From a virus: a stretch of DNA of 22,652 nucleotides. The translations under genes and the position numbers were made by a program. The notes beneath the pieces are model-generated. The model did no database searches, was not told the origin of the DNA, and saw only the letters and a list, made by a program, of their open reading frames with translations. The stretch is from positions 1 through 22,652 of IMG/VR virus record IMGVR_UViG_3300006641_000193; one strand, given 5' to 3'. Every line of letters starts with the position of its first letter. The stretch's first letter is position 1. This document shows, in pieces, positions 4,103-20,646 of this stretch.

Positions 4103-4810
4103 TTACTTTGTAAGATCTTGGGAATCAACGGCTTGTGCCGCAACAAAGTCAGAGATAAGTGGAAAGACAGGAGCAATTGCGAAGGCAATCTTGCGGGCAA
4201 CATCCATATGCTCAGCCTGAGTTCCGTTGGCAGTTCGGACCTCCACGTAGTGGACGAACGACCGCAGAGTTCCGGCCATGTAAAGACGGGACATCGTGTT
4301 ACCTTCAGGGAGGATCGCTCGAGCCTGTTCCTTGGCAATTCCGTGCATGATCGCCCATTCGTACGTATTCTTTGCCATCACGATCATCTGATTCTGCCGA
4401 CGATCCCACTCGTTCAGCAGAACTTGGTCATCGGTCTGAACACTATTCTGGCGGTTCTTGGCGTCTTGCAGCCGAGCATCACGGGTCACAAAGTCCAGAG
4501 CCGCTGTGGGATCGGCATACCTTTGAGAAAACTCCTGGAAAGCGAACGACCGATGACGGAGCATCTGCCGAGCAATGTCTCGTGTGGTTTCGATCTCGAC
4601 CGTTGCCGAAACCATTTCCAGCGGAGACCAATGCTTATGCTTGACCAGATACCTGACCAGCTTTTCAGAGGTCTGGTGATTGTTCTGGTTTGCTGGATTG
4701 CTGACTCGAGCACAGTAGGCCACAAGCTCCTGTGGTGTCGAAGATATCCCTGAAGAAAGGACACCGGTGCTGTGGTTTACAAGCTCGACTTTTTGGTGAT
4801 CAAAGTTCAT
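4103..4810 (-). CDS. thyX: FAD-dependent thymidylate synthase ThyX
   Basis: A 235-residue protein that converts dUMP to dTMP with FAD, NADPH and methylene-tetrahydrofolate. The ThyX signature RHR-x7-S is present at residues 85-95 in RHRSFAFQEFSQRY, and length and layout fit the family: N-terminal strand, central helical bundle, and RTANGTQAEHMDVARKI-like substrate-binding helix near the end. The start overlaps the upstream stop as TAATG. It is the last gene of the seven-gene unit beginning at 6796. dUMP would come from the dCMP deaminase encoded at 12943-13464, so the phage holds a complete dCMP to dTMP route alongside hydroxymethyl-dCMP synthesis. Confidence 0.95.
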   Translation of the reverse strand: MNFDHQKVELVNHSTGVLSSGISSTPQELVAYCARVSNPANQNNHQTSEKLVRYLVKHKHWSPLEMVSATVEIETTRDIARQMLRHRSFAFQEFSQRYADPTAALDFVTRDARLQDAKNRQNSVQTDDQVLLNEWDRRQNQMIVMAKNTYEWAIMHGIAKEQARAILPEGNTMSRLYMAGTLRSFVHYVEVRTANGTQAEHMDVARKIAFAIAPVFPLISDFVAAQAVDSQDLTK

Positions 4811-8212: not shown

Positions 8213-8534
8213 TTGAAGTGTTATCTGGAGTACCGATCTGGTAGTTTCCTGAATCGAAAGCGTCTTGAATTAGATGGGAAAGGACATCGCCAACTAGGCG
8301 TGAAAATTTGGAATCGGAATTAAGAGCAGCCTTGTCGCCTTGTATGACTTCATACTTGAATGACATCTTGGCCGTTTCCTTGTCTTCAGATACTGTCAAG
8401 AGCACTTTTCCATACGCTACGACGATTCCGTCGTAAGGTGCGACCTTGAGCTTTACAACATAGATGGCAGTCTTGTCAGAGGTATCTATGTCTGGAACGA
8501 GCTCGTATGAGTCTTTGGTGATTTTATTCGTCAT
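8166..8534 (-). CDS. Hypothetical protein between uvsX and gene 41
   Basis: A 122-residue protein. Residues about 20-65 suggest a beta-rich core (AIYVVKLKVAPYDGIVVAYG), 80-95 a helix (FSRLVGDVLSHLIQDAF), and the last 25 residues are a polar tail rich in Thr, Asn and Ser that overlaps the start of gene 41. In T4 this position between uvsX and 41 is held by gene 40, of similar size, but I see no convincing sequence match, so I do not assign it. It starts inside the last codons of uvsX (11-nt overlap), so it is translationally coupled. Confidence 0.6.
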   Translation of the reverse strand: MTNKITKDSYELVPDIDTSDKTAIYVVKLKVAPYDGIVVAYGKVLLTVSEDKETAKMSFKYEVIQGDKAALNSDSKFSRLVGDVLSHLIQDAFDSGNYQIGTPDNTSNVQSTPADNTSETRQ

Positions 8535-9567
8535 CTTCGGAAGTTTCTGTTTCTAGTTGTTGAATTGCTGAACGGTATCCCACGGTGTACTTATCCTTGA
8601 CGAATTGCTTAAACTCGTCGGACTTTAAGACAGGATCCCAGAATGTTGCAGTGTAAGTCTCGGCCTCACGATATTTGTCGGTCTCGCCCTTCTTCGAGTA
8701 CCAACCAACGGTCGGCTTGGTGACGAAACCGCCCTCGAGGGCGATCTCAAGCAGACCTGAGTACTTCTCAACGCCACCATTGAAGGAGACCGAGATCGGA
8801 ATCTTAGACTTCTCCTTCACGAAGCGAGACTTGTCGATGTTGATGATGAAGTGATAGCCGTTAAGACCATCATCATCCTTGTCCTGCTGACGGCCGAGCA
8901 TCCAGACGGCATTTGCCGAATAGTAGATGCCAGTACCGCCAGACATAACGTCCTTCGAGTACATCTCGAGCGTCTTGTAGCTGTGGTTGATTGCCACGAG
9001 AGGAATGTTCTTCAGGGTCAGGTACGGAGTGACCATACGGAATAGACCCTTCAGAGCCTTGGCTCGAGACATGTCGGCTACAGACTTCTCGTTCATTGCA
9101 TCCTCGACTTCCTTCTTGGAAGCCAGATTGCCGATGGAATCGATGACCACGATGACCTTCTCGCCCCTCTCGAGGTTGTTCATCTGGTTGACCAGATCAA
9201 ACTTTAGTTCCTCAACGTTGGTGATAGGAGTGTGAAGGACTCGAGCCACGTCGATCCCAAACGTCTTGAAGTACTGCTGTGGAGAACCGAACTCGGAATC
9301 ATAGAACAGCATGATCGCCTCGGGATACTTCTTGAGGTATGCCGCCGCCATGATGAGCGAATAGCTAGACTTAAAGTGCTTTGACGGTCCAGCCAGGACA
9401 GTCAGACCGGACGTGAGACCTCCATCCAGAGATCCAGACAACGCTACGTTGAGCATTGGGATCTCAGTAGGAATCATGTCTTTGTCGTTGAAGAGCGCGG
9501 ACTTATCCAGTACCTCGGTCTGTTCGATCTTCGAATTCTTCTTCAGCTTTGCGAGTAGTGATGACAT
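8524..9567 (-). CDS. uvsX: RecA-like recombinase UvsX
   Basis: A 347-residue strand-exchange recombinase that coats single-stranded DNA and drives recombination-dependent replication and repair. Walker A is GPSKHFKS at residues 60-67, the UvsX-type variant (T4 has GPSKSFKS), and the next strand carries LFYDSEFG at 87-94. Walker B is IVVIDSIGN at about 139-147. An acidic tail (ETETSEDDE) is typical for binding control. It is the first gene of its operon. The candidate -10 AATGAT ends seven bases before the ATG, and no Shine-Dalgarno is visible, so it too may be leaderless. Confidence 0.95.
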   Translation of the reverse strand: MSSLLAKLKKNSKIEQTEVLDKSALFNDKDMIPTEIPMLNVALSGSLDGGLTSGLTVLAGPSKHFKSSYSLIMAAAYLKKYPEAIMLFYDSEFGSPQQYFKTFGIDVARVLHTPITNVEELKFDLVNQMNNLERGEKVIVVIDSIGNLASKKEVEDAMNEKSVADMSRAKALKGLFRMVTPYLTLKNIPLVAINHSYKTLEMYSKDVMSGGTGIYYSANAVWMLGRQQDKDDDGLNGYHFIINIDKSRFVKEKSKIPISVSFNGGVEKYSGLLEIALEGGFVTKPTVGWYSKKGETDKYREAETYTATFWDPVLKSDEFKQFVKDKYTVGYRSAIQQLETETSEDDE

Positions 9568-9604: not shown

Positions 9605-10639
9605 TTAAACGGGACGCTTGCTCGGCAATTTGTTGTGCCAACCATAACCTTGCCAGTGCGGATACGCTCCTCGAGAAAGGTGAACCGACTGAGGTTTTTC
9701 CATGTGCTCGAAATCAAGTTCGCCTGCTTCATTCAGAAGCCGATCGGTCCACTTGAAGACTGAGACGTTGCCTGAGCACAAACGATCGAGTTCTTCGATG
9801 AAGACGCCGCGCGCTTCGTTTCGCTGAGCCCACGTTCCGTAGAACGGTGTTCCTTTGTAATAGCCGGTCTTCGGTAGCTTTCGAGATTCGTTCTCGATAG
9901 GTAACGGTTCCCAAATCTTGATATCGGAGAATGGAAGAGACTTTGCTTGTTCGACATATCGCCTCACGAGTTCCTTCGTGGCTGCAAGAGGATCTGGTTG
10001 ACGACAGAGATGATGCCGAATGTCGATGTTTCCAAAGTAGAATTCTGCATGTGTGAACTCTCCTACGGGAATGAACGACTTCAGACCAAGCTCTAGAGCT
10101 CCATAAAGAGTCTTGTAAGGTACCGAGTTGATCTTCCACCCGTGGCGGTACATGGAAATTCCATGCGAATCCCCTACTGCGATATTGCTTCCAGGAACAA
10201 AATCATTGGGATACTTAGTGATTGCGAGATTTTCAATCGTATTTAAGTATTCCCAATCGACCTGCTTCCAGTCAGGATGTGCTGCAGGATCTTTGTCGAC
10301 CCGCGGCTTGATCATCTTCGAATACTCCGGAAAATGAATATCCAGAGACCAGACTTCCCCTTTGAACTTTGAGAGTCTAGCGAGTTGATCGATGTTGCCG
10401 AATGCTTTGACTCCGCCGAACATGTTGACTGTGCCACCCCAGTCATTTCCATGGTATACCGCCACGATATCGTATTCGTTATAGTCTTCTGCAATTCCGC
10501 CAAAGTTAACAGTAACATCCCATCCTCCATATGCAGATGCAATTTGATCAGCATAGATGACGGCCTGTGCCGCGCGATGAGACGCAATTCGCTCCGAGAT
10601 TGGAGCCATTGGAGTAGTTATGAGTATTCTGTGGTTCAT
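9605..10639 (-). CDS. SGNH/GDSL hydrolase-like protein in the modification operon
   Basis: A 344-residue protein. GDSH at residues 156-159 fits block I of SGNH hydrolases with S158 as nucleophile. YFGNIDIRHH at 201-210 fits block III (N204, G203 as oxyanion residues), and SVHLS at 318-322 could give the catalytic H320. The N-terminal 150 residues form a separate region (HRILITTPMAPISERIASHR, GEVWSLDIHFPE), possibly a Rossmann-like or glycan-binding domain. SGNH enzymes are esterases or acyltransferases; the substrate here is unknown. The ATG at 10639 overlaps the PLP-enzyme stop as ATGA. As last gene of the gp42 operon, it may add or remove an acyl group on a modified base or its precursor; that is inference. 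Confidence 0.6.
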   Translation of the reverse strand: MNHRILITTPMAPISERIASHRAAQAVIYADQIASAYGGWDVTVNFGGIAEDYNEYDIVAVYHGNDWGGTVNMFGGVKAFGNIDQLARLSKFKGEVWSLDIHFPEYSKMIKPRVDKDPAAHPDWKQVDWEYLNTIENLAITKYPNDFVPGSNIAVGDSHGISMYRHGWKINSVPYKTLYGALELGLKSFIPVGEFTHAEFYFGNIDIRHHLCRQPDPLAATKELVRRYVEQAKSLPFSDIKIWEPLPIENESRKLPKTGYYKGTPFYGTWAQRNEARGVFIEELDRLCSGNVSVFKWTDRLLNEAGELDFEHMEKPQSVHLSRGAYPHWQGYGWHNKLPSKRPV

Positions 10640-11523
10640 TCGTTTGCAGTCTTCTTTGGCCAATCACGATAGGACTTGGTGTTAGCAATAATGCTAGGAT
10701 CTTTTAGCTGAGGTTCTGTGCCAACATTCCACATCAAGATCTTCTTTCCGCTCTTGTTCTTTGGAATGTATTTCCAGACCTTGGCATCGTATGTATTGAC
10801 CGTAGGGAATGGCGGAAGATTCTCCTTCTTCTCAGCGGCAGTGAAATCCAACGGTTCTGTAATGACCTCGGCGCGCCCGAGCTCTCCGGCCTTTAGATTA
10901 CGTGCCACGGCAACGCAGTGGAACTTGGCGTTCGGCCAAGCGATCTGAAGAGCGCGAGACAGCACTCCGGTCGAGATCGCGACGTAGACCTCATCTGGTT
11001 CTGGAATAGTCAGAGCTGCATGAATGATTCCTGCAGTGGCCAGCTCATGCTTCAGACCGAGCGGAACGAAGAAGGCTCCATTCTCCTTGGCCCAGATCTC
11101 TGCCTTTCGATTTAGGTTCGGCATTGCCGCGATGCGCTCAAAGTAGGCCGTAGCGCCACGCTCGATGCAGCAAGCCTGATGGTGTGAGATCTCCTTCGAG
11201 GAAGGCATGAACAGGACGACGTCCTTGTTGTGCCGTTTCGCCACATCGGCGATCGATACACCGGCCAACCCAACTCGCGGTTGGCAGTACACGATCGTCT
11301 TTAGCGGCGCTTTTGCAGCCAGAAGATCGCCGGCGCGCGTCTTTGTTCCGACGATCAAGTCGTCGCGCACCACCTGAACACCTTCGTGTTCGATGACGAC
11401 AGGAGCCGGATTGTACGGCTTCCATCCTTCACAGAGACCGAGATAGTAGTCCTTGGCATCGGCCCAGGACATCCCCCTGAGATCTTTATTGATACCATCA
11501 ACGACGTGATTATCGTGAGCCAT
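10636..11523 (-). CDS. PLP-dependent fold-type-II enzyme (lyase/deaminase-like)
   Basis: A 295-residue protein of the tryptophan-synthase-beta fold. VVRDDLIVGTKTRAGDLL (51-68) matches the region of ACC deaminase-type enzymes where a lysine, here K61, forms the Schiff base with pyridoxal phosphate. AISTGVLSRAL (182-192) is the phosphate-binding turn. Similar proteins in phages are often labelled PLP-dependent lyase/thiolase. In phages with hypermodified thymine, PLP enzymes trim an amino acid attached to the base, so its place right after an amino acid:DNA transferase-like gene is suggestive. It starts 14 nt inside that gene. The exact reaction (decarboxylation, elimination or other) is not visible. 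Confidence 0.7.
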   Translation of the reverse strand: MAHDNHVVDGINKDLRGMSWADAKDYYLGLCEGWKPYNPAPVVIEHEGVQVVRDDLIVGTKTRAGDLLAAKAPLKTIVYCQPRVGLAGVSIADVAKRHNKDVVLFMPSSKEISHHQACCIERGATAYFERIAAMPNLNRKAEIWAKENGAFFVPLGLKHELATAGIIHAALTIPEPDEVYVAISTGVLSRALQIAWPNAKFHCVAVARNLKAGELGRAEVITEPLDFTAAEKKENLPPFPTVNTYDAKVWKYIPKNKSGKKILMWNVGTEPQLKDPSIIANTKSYRDWPKKTANE

Positions 11524-12673
11524 AGAGTTCTTTCACTTTGTTCTTGTATTCCGTAACAGTCATTCCAGCCCTAGACAATACATAGTCATCGGACGGATGT
11601 ACATCCAAATCGTTGAAGGATTTGATGAGTCCTAGTTCTAGCATTGGCTTCTGGCGACCGTACGGGTGATCGTGAATCTTGTGCGAGGACCATATCTTAT
11701 CTCGGTCCAGATGCTGGTAATCTGCTCCAGGACGTACGTAGTTCTCGACCCAGCGGATGAAATCACAGCAGACGTCCTCAGCATTGTAAGGAACAGAACC
11801 AGTGTCTCGAAAGATCTGCTCCATCACGGCATCTAAGAACTGCTCTTCCTTGCCGCGCCCGAGAGGCTTCGCCAGATATGAGATGCATTCGACAGCATTA
11901 GATCCGTAGTAGAAGTGACTGTCACGATTTACGAACTCAGGATACCAATCCGCAATGTCGGCGATGAATGCCGCGTACTGGAATCGATAGGCACGAAGAT
12001 TGTGATCTTTGTTCCATTTGAACATCCATTCACCAATCTCTCGTAGATCTTTCTTTCCGCCTTTTCGGAGGAAAACAGAAAGATCGCTAACAAGCTTTGG
12101 CGCGTATTCAACCAAATAGAAGTCACCTCCACGTTTGAATTTCGATCCGGCCGGTGGCTTTGGGAAAGCAGGAAACTGATAGCCAACTGATGTGTAGAAC
12201 GACTTCGGATACGTCATGACCATCTTCGTCATCTCCTGGATGTTCTTGCACTTGTAAAGTTCGAAGAGCAACGTATTGTGGTAACCTGACGGCTTCGTCG
12301 CATAGTTGATGCCGGATCCGCAGACACGATGCAGAAGAAAGACGTACAGCCATTCTTGCAGATTAAATTCTGCATTCTTACCAGTCCAATTTGTGGCAAC
12401 GATCTTGCGCTGCGCAGTATGATGACCTGCCTTCATCTTGTGCCAGTACGGATGCTTGTCCGTCCAACCATAGAAGACATCGTTGACGATCTGCGAGAAT
12501 CCAGCCAGCTTTCTCTCGACCACATCATACAACTCGACGTTCTCCATGAGATCGTCGTTCATCTGAGACTGCAGATACGGCGTCGTGCCAAGATTGCACT
12601 TGGCTTGCTGGTCTTCCGCCATCTTGTAGTAGCGGATGAATTCCGGGTAATAGTGAGTGAGTTCAATCTTCAT
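11510..12673 (-). CDS. Amino acid:DNA transferase-like protein (aGPT-Pplase family), putative
   Basis: A 387-residue, mostly helical protein without a Walker motif. Conserved-looking blocks are LLHRVCGSGINY at residues 113-124, GYHNT at 130-134, ADIADWYPEFVNRDS at 238-252 with YYGSNAVECI at 255-264, and EDVCCDFIRW at 299-308. From memory these recall the alpha-glutamyl/putrescinyl thymine pyrophosphorylase group, now known to include amino acid:DNA transferases that attach an amino acid to a phosphorylated hydroxymethyl base in phage DNA. This is pattern recognition without an alignment. Support comes from the operon: gp42 upstream and a PLP enzyme directly downstream. The partner kinase that activates the hydroxymethyl group is not in this window. 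The start overlaps the glycosylase-like gene by 11 nt. Confidence 0.5.
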   Translation of the reverse strand: MKIELTHYYPEFIRYYKMAEDQQAKCNLGTTPYLQSQMNDDLMENVELYDVVERKLAGFSQIVNDVFYGWTDKHPYWHKMKAGHHTAQRKIVATNWTGKNAEFNLQEWLYVFLLHRVCGSGINYATKPSGYHNTLLFELYKCKNIQEMTKMVMTYPKSFYTSVGYQFPAFPKPPAGSKFKRGGDFYLVEYAPKLVSDLSVFLRKGGKKDLREIGEWMFKWNKDHNLRAYRFQYAAFIADIADWYPEFVNRDSHFYYGSNAVECISYLAKPLGRGKEEQFLDAVMEQIFRDTGSVPYNAEDVCCDFIRWVENYVRPGADYQHLDRDKIWSSHKIHDHPYGRQKPMLELGLIKSFNDLDVHPSDDYVLSRAGMTVTEYKNKVKELYGSR

Positions 12674-13037
12674 GCAGATAGTTATAGCACTGACGGAGTA
12701 CAGTTTTTTCGTAGGTTGGATCGTTTAGCTTCCGGTTGAGAGGGCTCGGATGTGGTAATTGGAAGTGTGAAATAGATATACGAGTGAGAGCCGAAGAAGC
12801 AAACTGTCCTAGTGCTACGATCTTAGAATAGCCTCTGGCTAATTCTAGGACTTCCCAGTTCACTGAATCGTGAGTGGCAATATCCGCATACGAGGCGTTG
12901 ATGAATGACCAACGCTCAACTCCTAGCTGCGTCATCCAACTGTCAAGCCGTTTTAATGACGGACTTGACCGGTTCCCACGGGTTAGGTTCGAAGGATTCT
13001 GACCCACCACTATCGGATACGAGATCAATTTGGACAT
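12663..13037 (-). CDS. Uracil-DNA glycosylase-superfamily protein
   Basis: A 124-residue protein, much shorter than classical UDGs (about 200-230). VVGQNPS at residues 10-16 fits motif A (water-activating loop GxxP) and LPHPSPLNR at 94-102 fits motif B (HPSP, DNA-intercalating loop); KIVALGQFAS at 72-81 is the usual strand between them. The fold assignment is good, but the usual catalytic Asp of motif A is replaced by Asn (N14), so it may be a divergent or non-excising member. The ATG at 13037 has GAGGA five bases upstream. This creates a 95-nt out-of-frame overlap with the dCMP deaminase gene. In this operon it may excise or handle unwanted or modified bases. Confidence 0.65.
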   Translation of the reverse strand: MSKLISYPIVVGQNPSNLTRGNRSSPSLKRLDSWMTQLGVERWSFINASYADIATHDSVNWEVLELARGYSKIVALGQFASSALTRISISHFQLPHPSPLNRKLNDPTYEKTVLRQCYNYLHED

Positions 13038-13464
13038 GGGCTTCCTCACACATTCTTCGGCTTAACTGCCACGATTCTTTCCACTTCTCAGGAACTTCCT
13101 GAGCTGGCATCACGATACGTTTGATGCCAACCTGGATCAGGCCCTTCGTGCATTCGGAGCAGCACGGCAGACCATGAACATACATCGTGGCCCCGTTGAG
13201 TGAGACACCAGCCAAACTTGCGTTGTAGATGGCATTCATCTCGGCGTGCACGATGTACCGGTACTTCAGTTCACGGTTTGCCAACCTTTCAGGATTGTCA
13301 GAGATTCCACGAGGGAATCCGTTGTAACCCTGAGAGAGTACCTGACCATGATCTCCAACCGCGACAGCACCGACCTTCGTGGAAGGATCCTTTGACCAGG
13401 ATCCAACCTCTTTGGCTAGGTGGATGTACCGCTTATCCCACTTGAGATGTTGCTCGGTCGGCAT
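12943..13464 (-). CDS. cd: dCMP deaminase
   Basis: A 173-residue zinc-dependent deaminase converting dCMP to dUMP. HAEMN at residues 73-77 provides the zinc-binding His and catalytic Glu, and PCCSEC at 100-105 the zinc-binding cysteines (C102, C105); GYNGFPRGISDNPERL is the typical substrate region of phage dCMP deaminases. The ATG at 13464 lies one base after the upstream stop; the open frame continues farther upstream but would overlap that gene. The C-terminal 30 or so residues (SDSGGSESFEPNPWEPVK) are encoded in DNA that also encodes the start of the glycosylase-like protein. Its product feeds ThyX; gp42 competes for the same dCMP pool. Confidence 0.92.
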   Translation of the reverse strand: MPTEQHLKWDKRYIHLAKEVGSWSKDPSTKVGAVAVGDHGQVLSQGYNGFPRGISDNPERLANRELKYRYIVHAEMNAIYNASLAGVSLNGATMYVHGLPCCSECTKGLIQVGIKRIVMPAQEVPEKWKESWQLSRRMCEEAHVQIDLVSDSGGSESFEPNPWEPVKSVIKTA

Positions 13465-13466
13465 GC

Positions 13467-13784
13467 TTATTTCGTGTATGACGTTCCATCGTTGATCGTC
13501 ATCAACCCAAAGTGGAGGTCGAGTTTCAACCATGGTCCATCTTCATCTTCGTCTTCGACGAGTGCTGCAGTAAATCCGCCGGTGCAGGAGTATCCGGTAG
13601 CAGCTGCCTGTTTCAGGCGTTCACGCGCAGATCGACGAATCTCATAGATATCCGGCACTCTTGCTTGGCCATCCATATTGCCCCATTTCCAGTCGGAATG
13701 CAGCATCCAGGAATGGACCTCCTCAAAGTCGAAGGTGTCCATGATCTCATCAATCTGATGTTGAATTGCTTCTTGGCGTGTCAT
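13467..13784 (-). CDS. Conserved phage-type hypothetical protein, 105 aa
   Basis: A 105-residue protein beginning MTRQEAIQHQIDEIMDTFDF, with SWMLHSDWKWGNMD, a helix (IYEIRRSARERLKQAAATG), a CTGGFTAAL segment and a final beta-like stretch. From memory this order (helix, DWKW, basic helix, GGF, strand) occurs in a small hypothetical protein common in tailed phages; no function known to me. The start overlaps the gp42 stop as ATGA and the stop is two bases before the deaminase start. Confidence 0.6.
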   Translation of the reverse strand: MTRQEAIQHQIDEIMDTFDFEEVHSWMLHSDWKWGNMDGQARVPDIYEIRRSARERLKQAAATGYSCTGGFTAALVEDEDEDGPWLKLDLHFGLMTINDGTSYTK

Positions 13785-14458
13785 TTGATTAGGTCGAAGT
13801 GGCGTTCGTAAACGTGCAAGGAACCGACCTGCCAGGTCAAAGTTCCCATACCATAGCGACAGTCGCCCTTGGAATTCAGATCGTCAAGGAGCCGGCTCAT
13901 GACCTCATGCTGCCAAGCACGATCATTCTTGTAACCGAAGACGACGTCATTGGAACGCATCTGAACCACAGCATGAAGGTTGTCATTACGGATCATGTAC
14001 TGGACCGCATTAGTGCACATAAAGTCCGACATGCCGTCACGGTTGTAATCTGTGTGCATGGTCGGACGGGTGTAGATCATCACAGCACGGCGACTGTTGG
14101 GATTTGCCAACAGCTCAAGCATGACCGACCAGTACTGCTTATGGTTCTGAGAAGAATAGATGGCCCAACCATAGTTGGAATTGATCTCGCCATTCTTGCT
14201 GGAGACCATTTGCCAGATCTTAGGAGCACCACCACGGATATCAGTGACCTTCAGAGACTGAGAGTCATACCATTCAATCTCGCGCTGGACATAGTCCCAG
14301 TTGACGTCTCCGAAGATAGCATCTTCGTCAGCAACGAACGAGGCACCGACCAGTTCAATGGTCTTGACGCCGGTCTTGTCGATGACGAAGTTGCCGTTAG
14401 CCAGAGCAGTCTTGAAGTGCTCTCGGATGTCTTTGACTTTAAGAGTTGGCAGTAGCAT
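13781..14458 (-). CDS. 42: Deoxycytidylate (dCMP) hydroxymethylase gp42
   Basis: A 225-residue enzyme of the thymidylate synthase fold that makes 5-hydroxymethyl-dCMP from dCMP and methylene-tetrahydrofolate. The match to T4 gp42 is close through most of the length: FVIDKTGVKTIELVGASFVA (24-43), GEINSNYGWAI (90-100), MIYTRP (127-132) and GMSDFMCTNAVQY (142-154). The catalytic cysteine is C148 and the residue that selects cytosine over uracil is D179 in GYKNDRAWQ, the same numbers as in T4; thymidylate synthases have Asn there. The protein stops after VYERHFDLIK, so the last 20 or so residues of T4 gp42 are missing. The start at 14458 lies within the end of the upstream gene. Confidence 0.95.
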   Translation of the reverse strand: MLLPTLKVKDIREHFKTALANGNFVIDKTGVKTIELVGASFVADEDAIFGDVNWDYVQREIEWYDSQSLKVTDIRGGAPKIWQMVSSKNGEINSNYGWAIYSSQNHKQYWSVMLELLANPNSRRAVMIYTRPTMHTDYNRDGMSDFMCTNAVQYMIRNDNLHAVVQMRSNDVVFGYKNDRAWQHEVMSRLLDDLNSKGDCRYGMGTLTWQVGSLHVYERHFDLIK

Positions 14459-14798
14459 CGGGCTTCTTTCGGTTAGGACGGTTGAGGAAGTCGCGCTTGG
14501 GATCCTGGCCATCGATGCCACCGCGGATGAACGAGACGGCAAAGGATGAGTAATTGATCAGATCTTTAGCGGAGTCTTCGAGAGACTCGAAGTTAGGATT
14601 GTAGTTTGGATCGTTTTCCATCGCTTCGAGAACAGAACGCATACGAAGGATCTTGGTATGCATGATGTCAAGGATGGAAGCAAAGCCGCGCGGATAGTAG
14701 TCAGCCTGGCGGATCGTGCTGTTAGGATTCTGATAGTCGTTAGACTTCTTGAGTTGCAGCTCGGCACACTCGTGGAGAACTTTGATGGATTCCTTCAT
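14439..14798 (-). CDS. DUF1599-like (nucleotide modification associated domain 1) protein
   Basis: A 119-residue helical protein. KKSNDYQNP at residues 17-25, DIMHTKILRMRSVLE at 44-58 and SLEDSAKDLINYSSF at 71-85 resemble DUF1599/Nmad1, a MazG-like helical family found beside base-modification genes in phages. The family reaction is not established. It is the first gene of the eight-gene modification operon, directly upstream of gp42 with a 20-nt overlap. The -10 of its promoter ends nine bases before the ATG, so the leader is about 2 nt and no Shine-Dalgarno is present. The family label is from memory of the pattern. Confidence 0.6.
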   Translation of the reverse strand: MKESIKVLHECAELQLKKSNDYQNPNSTIRQADYYPRGFASILDIMHTKILRMRSVLEAMENDPNYNPNFESLEDSAKDLINYSSFAVSFIRGGIDGQDPKRDFLNRPNRKKPDATANS

Positions 14799-14806
14799 AA
14801 GCTTAG

Positions 14807-14834
14807 ATCTTAAACAGTGCGGGACAAAAGTAAA
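14807..14834 (-). promoter_or_regulatory. Early-type promoter TTTACT-N16-TAAGAT
   Basis: TTTACT (14834-14829) lies inside the last codons of the PD-(D/E)XK-like gene, and TAAGAT (14812-14807) overlaps that gene's stop. Spacer 16 nt. The -10 ends nine bases before the ATG at 14798. It would drive the hydroxymethylase and modification operon. Confidence 0.6.
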
Positions 14835-20109: not shown

Positions 20110-20559
20110 TCAGTCCTTCAGAAAACCCTTCTTGGTCTTCACTGGAGTATTGATCTCGATTTTCTTCGGGCGTTCATCCTCCGGCACAACACGCTCGAGG
20201 TTGACGGCGAGAATTCCGTCTCCCAAGTTTGCGCCTGTGACCTGGACGTGTTCACCCAGGGTAAACGTGCGGACAAACTCACGGGAAGAGATTCCCTTGT
20301 GAGCGTATTCGCGCGTATCTTCTTTCTTGCCAGTCACAGTCAGGATGGAATCCTTTAGCTGGATATCCAGATTTTCCTGCTTGAAGCCTGCAACCGCAAG
20401 CTCGATGATGTAGTTGTCATCATCGATTTTTACCACATTGTGTGGCGGATAGTTGTTCTGAGCACCGAGCTGAGCTCGTGTAAGCTCATCGAACAGTCTA
20501 TCGAATCCCACGAAATTTGCACGTGGGAAGTTAAACGAGGTTGTCGTGTATTGTGTCAT
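20110..20559 (-). CDS. hsp20: Small heat-shock protein (Hsp20/IbpA family)
   Basis: A 149-residue alpha-crystallin-domain chaperone. The N-terminal part (SFNFPRANFVGFDRLFDELT) resembles IbpA. The domain covers residues about 42-130, with the conserved YIIELAVAGFKQENLDI, LTVTGKKE, REFVRTFTLGEHVQV and GILAVNLER blocks, the last fitting the GxLxxxxP-type strand. The tail IEINTP carries the I-x-I motif used in oligomer formation. Such genes occur in many cyanophages and other T4-like phages, probably to protect folding of virion or replication proteins. The ATG at 20559 follows GGAGGAAACTAAG, a very good Shine-Dalgarno; an in-frame ATG five codons earlier would lie across it. Its leader is structured. 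Confidence 0.95.
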   Translation of the reverse strand: MTQYTTTSFNFPRANFVGFDRLFDELTRAQLGAQNNYPPHNVVKIDDDNYIIELAVAGFKQENLDIQLKDSILTVTGKKEDTREYAHKGISSREFVRTFTLGEHVQVTGANLGDGILAVNLERVVPEDERPKKIEINTPVKTKKGFLKD

Positions 20560-20567
20560 CTTAGTTT

Positions 20568-20646
20568 CCTCCAATTAAGCGAGGTTATGTTCTGTCTCCG
20601 CTGACCCCAATCGGGCATCAACGGTTGTTAGCGGGATTGCCAACAA
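20568..20646 (-). promoter_or_regulatory. Structured hsp20 leader: two hairpins and a possible SD-masking stem
   Basis: Three possible stems in the minus-strand RNA. TTGTTGGC-N6-GCTAACAA (20646-20625) has one G-U pair. CCGTTGA ... TCAGCGG (20624-20598) has one G-U pair and an inner CCC/GGG stem with a GATT loop. CCTC-N9-GAGG (20584-20568) covers part of the GGAGGA Shine-Dalgarno. None has a U tract, so they are not typical terminators. RNA-thermometer control is known for bacterial small heat-shock genes; here it is inference. Confidence 0.45.

Follow-up and report, generated by a model that had tools for sequence, protein, structure and literature searches.

A putative modular cassette for hypermodification of hydroxymethylcytosine in DNA of uncultured T4-like phages

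The stretch of DNA analysed here (the window) is the complete 22,652-base IMG/VR virus record IMGVR_UViG_3300006641_000193, which derives from an uncultured T4-like phage and is too short to be a whole genome. Between positions 14798 and 9605 it carries eight minus-strand open reading frames (ORFs) that overlap or abut, as an earlier sequence-only reading had described. In order, these encode a DUF1599-like protein, a gp42-type deoxycytidylate (dCMP) hydroxymethylase, a 105-aa orphan, a dCMP deaminase that the earlier reading had not named, a protein with the uracil-DNA glycosylase (UDG) fold, a protein of 387 aa (X387), a pyridoxal phosphate (PLP) enzyme of fold type II, and a protein of 352/344 aa (Y352; Table 1). 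The products of the last three genes are likely to add an amino-acid-derived group to 5-hydroxymethylcytosine (hmC) and to trim it, and we propose, with a probability of roughly 0.6, that the locus provides the donor-specific steps of a modular pathway hypermodifying hmC in phage DNA.

X387, the PLP enzyme, and Y352 form a cassette (type A hereafter) rather than a chance cluster, as their genes co-occurred in 64 of the 64 loci whose downstream sequence extended to 3.3 kb or more. The trio was also found in L011–L017, which have diverged polymerases and a different gene order; in L011–L016, where the polymerase is ~26–31% identical over partial stretches, the order is Y352-X387-PLP. At least 470 IMG/VR contigs encode X387, as do four contigs binned as bacterial genomes. 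A fourth gene, c4 (~330 aa), lies between X387 and PLP in 55 clustered loci and is absent from the window; it had no Pfam match, and blocks colinear with HMUDK_hel were not significant (E 0.06).

The base on which these enzymes would act can be read from the neighbouring hydroxymethylase. The window gp42 aligned with T4 gp42 (1b49) across 222 residues (phmmer E 7.5e-89), with the catalytic C148 and the specificity residue D179 both in place as previously noted, and it is 61% identical to gp42 of Salmonella and Citrobacter phages; translation probably begins with the ATG at 14458. A separate ThyX gene is present in the window, leaving gp42 free for a role as dCMP hydroxymethylase. The specificity residue was Asp (dCMP type) in 59/59 readable thymidylate synthase (TS)-family genes near type A cassettes, in all 14 of the X387 records first checked, and in all large X387 records, while the canonical TS of phages 44RR and 25 reads Asn at this position. 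The Asn of the dUMP-type hydroxymethylases that characterise 5-hydroxymethyldeoxyuridine (5-hmdU) systems was found in none of the X387 records read. A D-type hydroxymethylase in every readable X387 record therefore supports hmC as the modified base, in agreement with the earlier reading.

X387 had no match in Pfam, PHROG, or NCBIfam, nor in 50,697 cultured phage records. Its HRVCGSG and ADIADWYP blocks, which had been noticed before, are largely conserved across 52 relatives, and an AlphaFold2 model from 52 sequences was almost all-alpha (predicted local distance difference test, pLDDT, 80). Foldseek comparison of this model with BFVD recovered a protein named amino acid:DNA transferase (ADDT; A0A6J5LCY1) and an aGPT-Pplase clade 1 protein (each E 4.9e-3, probability 1.00), the 5-hmdU DNA kinase of SP10 (E 0.087, probability 1.00), the HMUDK_hel protein of RSL1 (probability 0.89), and the HMUDK helical protein of PhiW-14. 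Named non-self matches in the top ten were mostly ADDT, aGPT-Pplase, or HMUDK_hel proteins (probability 0.89–1.00, E 5e-3 to 0.7). E-values over the wider set of matches were modest, 5e-3 to 2, but those named as unrelated proteins had probabilities below 0.1. The top fold match, at 61% identity, carries the UniProt name amino acid:DNA transferase, which we treated as a lead only because none of the X387 members matches PF18724. By fold alone, X387 is supported as a member of the ADDT/aGPT-Pplase/HMUDK helical family, and we predict that it works like an ADDT; we avoid saying that it is one, as profile tests yielded no significant match. The proposal that the 387-aa protein is of ADDT type is thus upheld in its fold relationship but not in profile comparisons with the ADDT and HMUDK families.

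The PLP enzyme is better anchored in known families, and its earlier assignment to fold type II was borne out by PHROG (Table 1) and by a profile match to cysteine synthases (E 3e-5). Lys61 (G-x-K) was invariant in 26/26 members, as was the phosphate loop A-x-S-T-G. The gene beside the ADDT of phage M6 likewise encodes a fold-type-II PLP protein with the same C-terminal PFP-YD-KAW-WN signature, and hhalign related the two at 95% probability (E 2.2e-8), consistent with the suggested kinship to a thymidine-pathway enzyme. The nearest other relatives in cultured phages lie in a ParB/methylase context, perhaps another setting of DNA modification; in Microcystis and Erythrobacter phages (L021:8384-10702 and L022), they adjoin ParB/methylase-type genes or form fusions with them. 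A second PLP subfamily (37–39% identity) takes the place of the usual one in otherwise near-identical cassettes (L004:1858-2739, L009:7881-8759, and L006), which shows exchange of the PLP step as well.

Y352 (model pLDDT 90.5) is composite. Its C-terminal domain is of the SGNH type, as had been proposed, matching 2hsj (Foldseek E 1.8e-6), with Ser158 and His320 invariant in 45/45 members. The N-lobe, comprising the first ~147 residues, most frequently matched PF09198, in 18 of 45 members and below the cut-off (best E 0.008); hhalign related it to T4 beta-glucosyltransferase (BGT) at 93–95% probability (E 3e-7 to 5e-8), while none of the controls, eleven other families and a reversed profile, scored below E 0.038. 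The C-half had no BGT match and shows the SGNH fold in place of the UDP-glucose-binding C-lobe. The search for glucosyltransferases that the earlier reading had called for gave no PF09198 match over the cut-off in related genomes, and no alpha-glucosyltransferase match, in a scan where the control for that enzyme was silent; six type A records gave PF09198 matches, and the five that were checked all fell within Y352. The gene directly precedes uvsX, and the T4 order is 42 - b-gt - segA - uvsX. From sequence and model, Y352 is best described as a chimera with the location of b-gt and a BGT-like N-lobe, in which an esterase/acyltransferase-type catalytic domain replaces the sugar-nucleotide lobe; the BGT-like lobe would then read hmC. 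A relative in Tenacibaculum phage PTm1 (L355:8566-9585), aligned over the SGNH half only, lies amid ribonucleotide reductase genes. A C5-cytosine DNA methyltransferase gene (PF00145) follows Y352 in L050:12087-13286 and relatives, in both cassette types.

The second cassette type was obtained by searching with the C-half of ORF233c of Aeromonas phage 44RR2.8t, which yielded 60 type B loci. Here Y352 is accompanied by myo-inositol-1-phosphate synthase (PF01658, 3.6e-24) and by Z395, which passes the PF18723 HMUDK_hel cut-off (up to 31 bits against 25; family alignment 97%, E 5e-10). The two sets are mutually exclusive. No Z395 or inositol synthase was present in the 96 type A loci (Y352 in 86), and no X387, PLP, or c4 in the 60 type B loci (Y352 in 59), in counts that include a few contigs fetched twice. 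Several loci (L279–L288 and L335) have the same DUF1599-gp42-dCMP deaminase-UDG backbone as the window and differ solely in the slot before Y352. The UDG-fold gene, being kept in both cassette types, is probably part of this backbone and not cassette-specific. Cassette labels on the Y352 tree require at least three to four changes, which indicates that the genes around Y352 have been swapped as sets. Where a large type B record contained a TS-family gene, it was of the D-type (9/9). The gene order in type B is myo-inositol-1-phosphate synthase, a HAD-like protein, often an FkbM methyltransferase, and then the HMUDK_hel-like protein, a set that suggests, from gene content, an inositol-derived modification of hmC. 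The HAD-like protein (~132 aa) was recognised by eye (L279:2496-6063; L284, L285, L288, L299, L305, L320), and one type B cassette also contains a T4 BGT-like protein (L320:3856-4890; PF09198, 5e-6).

In Aeromonas phage 25 and IME13, Y352 belongs to a third set, with UDP-galactopyranose mutase and a GT-B-like gene; galactofuranosyl-hmC is possible in these cultured phages. The p358 protein encoded beside the mutase of phage 25 was considered as an X387 relative and rejected, showing only a weak Y352/GT-B-like signal. In 44RR2.8t, the N-half of ORF233c is a Y352 homologue (34% identity) fused to the HMUDK_hel-like C-half, unlike the arrangement in the window, where Y352 stands with X387 and PLP. 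A sodium:solute symporter gene directly precedes this fusion (L020:9190-13170) and no inositol synthase was found in 44RR2.8t, so that the phage might import its donor. The cultured phages Mendera and Cr30 encode an inositol synthase and had no HMUDK_hel or Y352 match, and the synthase alone is thus not diagnostic.

Taken together, these observations suggest the following scheme. Homology to T4 gp42 shows that gp42 makes hydroxymethyl-dCMP, and hmC would then be incorporated into DNA. Y352 would recognise hmC in duplex DNA through its BGT-type lobe, and its SGNH domain (Ser158-His320) would act on the hydroxymethyl oxygen, most likely by acyl transfer that either activates or caps the group. 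X387, judging from its fold and context, would modify the 5-methylene with an amino acid or an amine, and the PLP enzyme, by analogy with its M6 relative, would reshape that amino acid, for instance through a decarboxylation or an elimination. In the sister phages, these last two steps would be replaced by inositol-1-phosphate synthase and the HMUDK_hel-family protein, giving an inositol-derived group. We favour Y352 as the enzyme acting on the hydroxymethyl group because it is common to all three donor sets and carries an hmC-type lobe. That it represents a new kind of DNA enzyme, whose acylation of hmC takes the place of the hmU kinase and so permits interchangeable transferases for amino-acid- or inositol-derived groups, is a tentative suggestion that we consider doubtful; more conservatively, Y352 may add a final acyl cap rather than activate by acylation. 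The SGNH protein may perform the acyl step previously assigned to it, but the idea of a mere trimmer of aminoacyl groups was dropped, given the BGT-like lobe and the accompanying inositol and galactofuranose genes.

Several results weigh against this scheme. None of the 52 X387 members matched PF18723 or PF18724 at E up to 10 (hmmscan), profile-profile comparison with ADDT/HMUDK_hel reached a best E of 0.033 against 0.08 for the reversed control (alignment Neff 1.8), bridging through Z395 gave no sequence link, and a PDB fold search with the X387 model returned no match. In the SGNH domain of Y352, the block III residue is Asn in 38/45 members and Ser in 7/45, and block V has an invariant Glu314 instead of the usual Asp; in the N-lobe, Asp100, the catalytic base of BGT, is not conserved at the aligned position. 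Finally, hmU phages activate the base with a dedicated DNA kinase, and the kinase that the sequence-only reading expected elsewhere in the genome found no support: PF18748, the known 5-hmdU DNA kinase family, was absent from ten X387 records of up to 168 kb, which may be incomplete, though found in ViI and M6. PF18723 and PF18724 were also absent from these records and found in ViI, M6, and phiW-14.

The kinase result bears on the possibility that the thymidine scheme applies exactly, with an unrecognised kinase phosphorylating hmC, X387 acting as a plain ADDT, the PLP enzyme trimming, and Y352 adding or removing a final acyl group. The fold of X387, the kinship of the PLP enzyme with M6, and the SGNH fold of Y352 all fit this explanation, which we nevertheless consider unlikely. 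Besides the missing PF18748 member, the P-loop clusters of eight large records were all accounted for by recombination, PhoH-like, AAA, or clamp-loader proteins (GKD-motif dNMP kinases were not analysed in depth), the widely conserved small ones being PhoH-like, recombination, or clamp-loader proteins, and the commercial 5-hmdU kinase leaves hmC unphosphorylated (PMC6457204). Given the possible incompleteness of the records, the absence of a kinase is suggestive only. The BGT-like lobe of Y352 and its association with inositol and galactofuranose genes are also unspecific to an aminoacyl end step.

Those same partners could instead point away from DNA, since glycan metabolism commonly involves SGNH proteins, UDP-galactopyranose mutase, and inositol synthase, and the genes might modify cell-surface glycans or free nucleotides. 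The tight linkage to gp42 and uvsX, the HMUDK_hel and BGT homology, and the finding that the hydroxymethylase is D-type in every large record of type A or B that has a TS-family gene make this improbable. We give very little credence to X387 being a helix-hairpin-helix-type DNA glycosylase or repair-like protein with incidental neighbours: endonuclease III was the other recognisable fold among its matches (probability 0.69) and a UDG-fold gene lies next to it, but the better fold matches all belong to the transferase/kinase-helical family, and its linkage to PLP and Y352 is invariable. The hypermodification of hmC by exchangeable cassettes remains our preferred reading.

This system resembles the thymidine hypermodification of ViI, M6, phiW-14, and SP10 in that a TS-family enzyme supplies a hydroxymethylpyrimidine and a transferase of the same fold is present, whose gene in M6 adjoins one for a PLP enzyme of the family described here; it differs in that the base is cytosine (Asp, not Asn), in the addition of Y352, and in the lack of PF18748, PF18723, and PF18724 members in the ten records. 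It shares gp42, the gene order 42 ... uvsX, and the N-lobe of Y352 with T4 glucosylation of hmC, whereas the SGNH domain replaces the sugar-binding lobe. Glucosylation and arabinosylation of hmC are known. Among other cytosine modifications, 5-carbamoyloxymethylcytosine from MetaGPA also arises when a phage enzyme further modifies hmC, but that enzyme is a carbamoyltransferase, different from X387, PLP, or Y352 (PMC8670742). The 5-glycylcarboxymethylcytosine (5gcxmC) of phage S-B43 (CmoA/CmoX/CmoY), published in December 2025, likewise bears an amino acid on C5 of DNA cytosine, but hmC is not its precursor: an ATP amide ligase and a C5-methyltransferase homologue that uses Cx-SAM make it instead (PMC12783734). 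The claim that a cytosine series would be new accordingly holds in that we found no described equivalent, but a glycine-bearing cytosine is reached by this other route. In the open-access literature, outside which most subscription journals lie, we found no paper on hmC modified through an X387-fold transferase, the inositol set, or the Y352 architecture, and this chemistry on cytosine is apparently undescribed.

The locus is real, conserved, and functionally coherent, with a predicted chemistry and, in Y352, a protein that may be new in kind. A widespread uncultured phage lineage would decorate hmC by a route that has been reported neither from T4 nor from the hmU phages, with hundreds of uncultured phages carrying the X387 set and the inositol branch adding a further variant. 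Gene 42 occurs in the Aeromonas phages 44RR, 31, and 25 without any known glucosyltransferase, and an alternative decoration of hmC was left open for them (Petrov et al. 2010, PMC2993671); like the window, 44RR2.8t has a Y352 homologue, so that these genes are candidates for the function that takes the place of glucosylation in such phages. The cultured 44RR2.8t renders part of the scheme testable, and new hmC-modifying enzymes would serve hmC detection.

Table 1 Positions and assignments of features in the window and in related phages.
Feature	Position (strand)	Assignment and basis
DUF1599-like	14439..14798 (-)	DUF1599 / nucleotide modification associated domain 1 protein, 119 aa; PF07659 E 0.002, sub-threshold; phrog_18404 1e-12
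gp42	13781..14458 (-)	gp42-type dCMP hydroxymethylase; ORF open from 14542
105-aa orphan	13467..13784 (-)	Kept in closest relatives only (loci L002, L003, L004, L006)
dCMP deaminase	12943..13533 (-)	HAE...PCxxC; PF00383 5e-22; phrog_174 7e-45
UDG-fold	12663..13049 (-)	UDG-superfamily protein; PF03167 E 8e-5, just under cut-off
X387	11510..12673 (-)	Predicted hmC-DNA transferase, 387 aa; fold of AlphaFold2 model
PLP enzyme	10636..11523 (-)	PLP fold type II; phrog_7093 1e-36
Y352	9605..10639 (-)	N-lobe ~10639-10199; SGNH domain ~10198-9605
UvsX	8524..9567 (-)	Right-hand boundary of slot occupied by b-gt in T4; T4 order, synteny in relatives
ThyX	4103-4810	Identified by eye; conserved in relatives
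c4 examples	L106:9155-10135; L079:9149-10162	
Third set, Aeromonas phage 25	L044:4767-8035	Unfused Y352 beside UDP-galactopyranose mutase and 358-aa GT-B-like gene
Third set, IME13	L045	As for phage 25
Inositol-1-phosphate synthase, Mendera	28852-30102 (L338)	
Inositol-1-phosphate synthase, Cr30	54208-55389 (L339)	

The remaining genes of the run add some detail. The DUF1599-like and UDG-fold assignments made earlier both hold, although their Pfam scores fall below the cut-offs, with PHROG supporting the former; the DUF1599-like protein, whose gene adjoins gp42 in many relatives, is possibly a counterpart of MazG-like dCTPases. The 105-aa orphan had no family match in Pfam or PHROG searches. 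The single promoter postulated for the run found no support: upstream of 14798 there is no site of the sigma-70 type, promoter-like sites are fewer than chance predicts (3 against 7.6 expected), and the preceding ORF ends just 11 bases before the run. Elsewhere in the window, a small heat-shock (Hsp20-like) gene recognised by eye at 20110-20574 has the polymerase gene on one side and a RegA-like gene on the other, and it is conserved in relatives.

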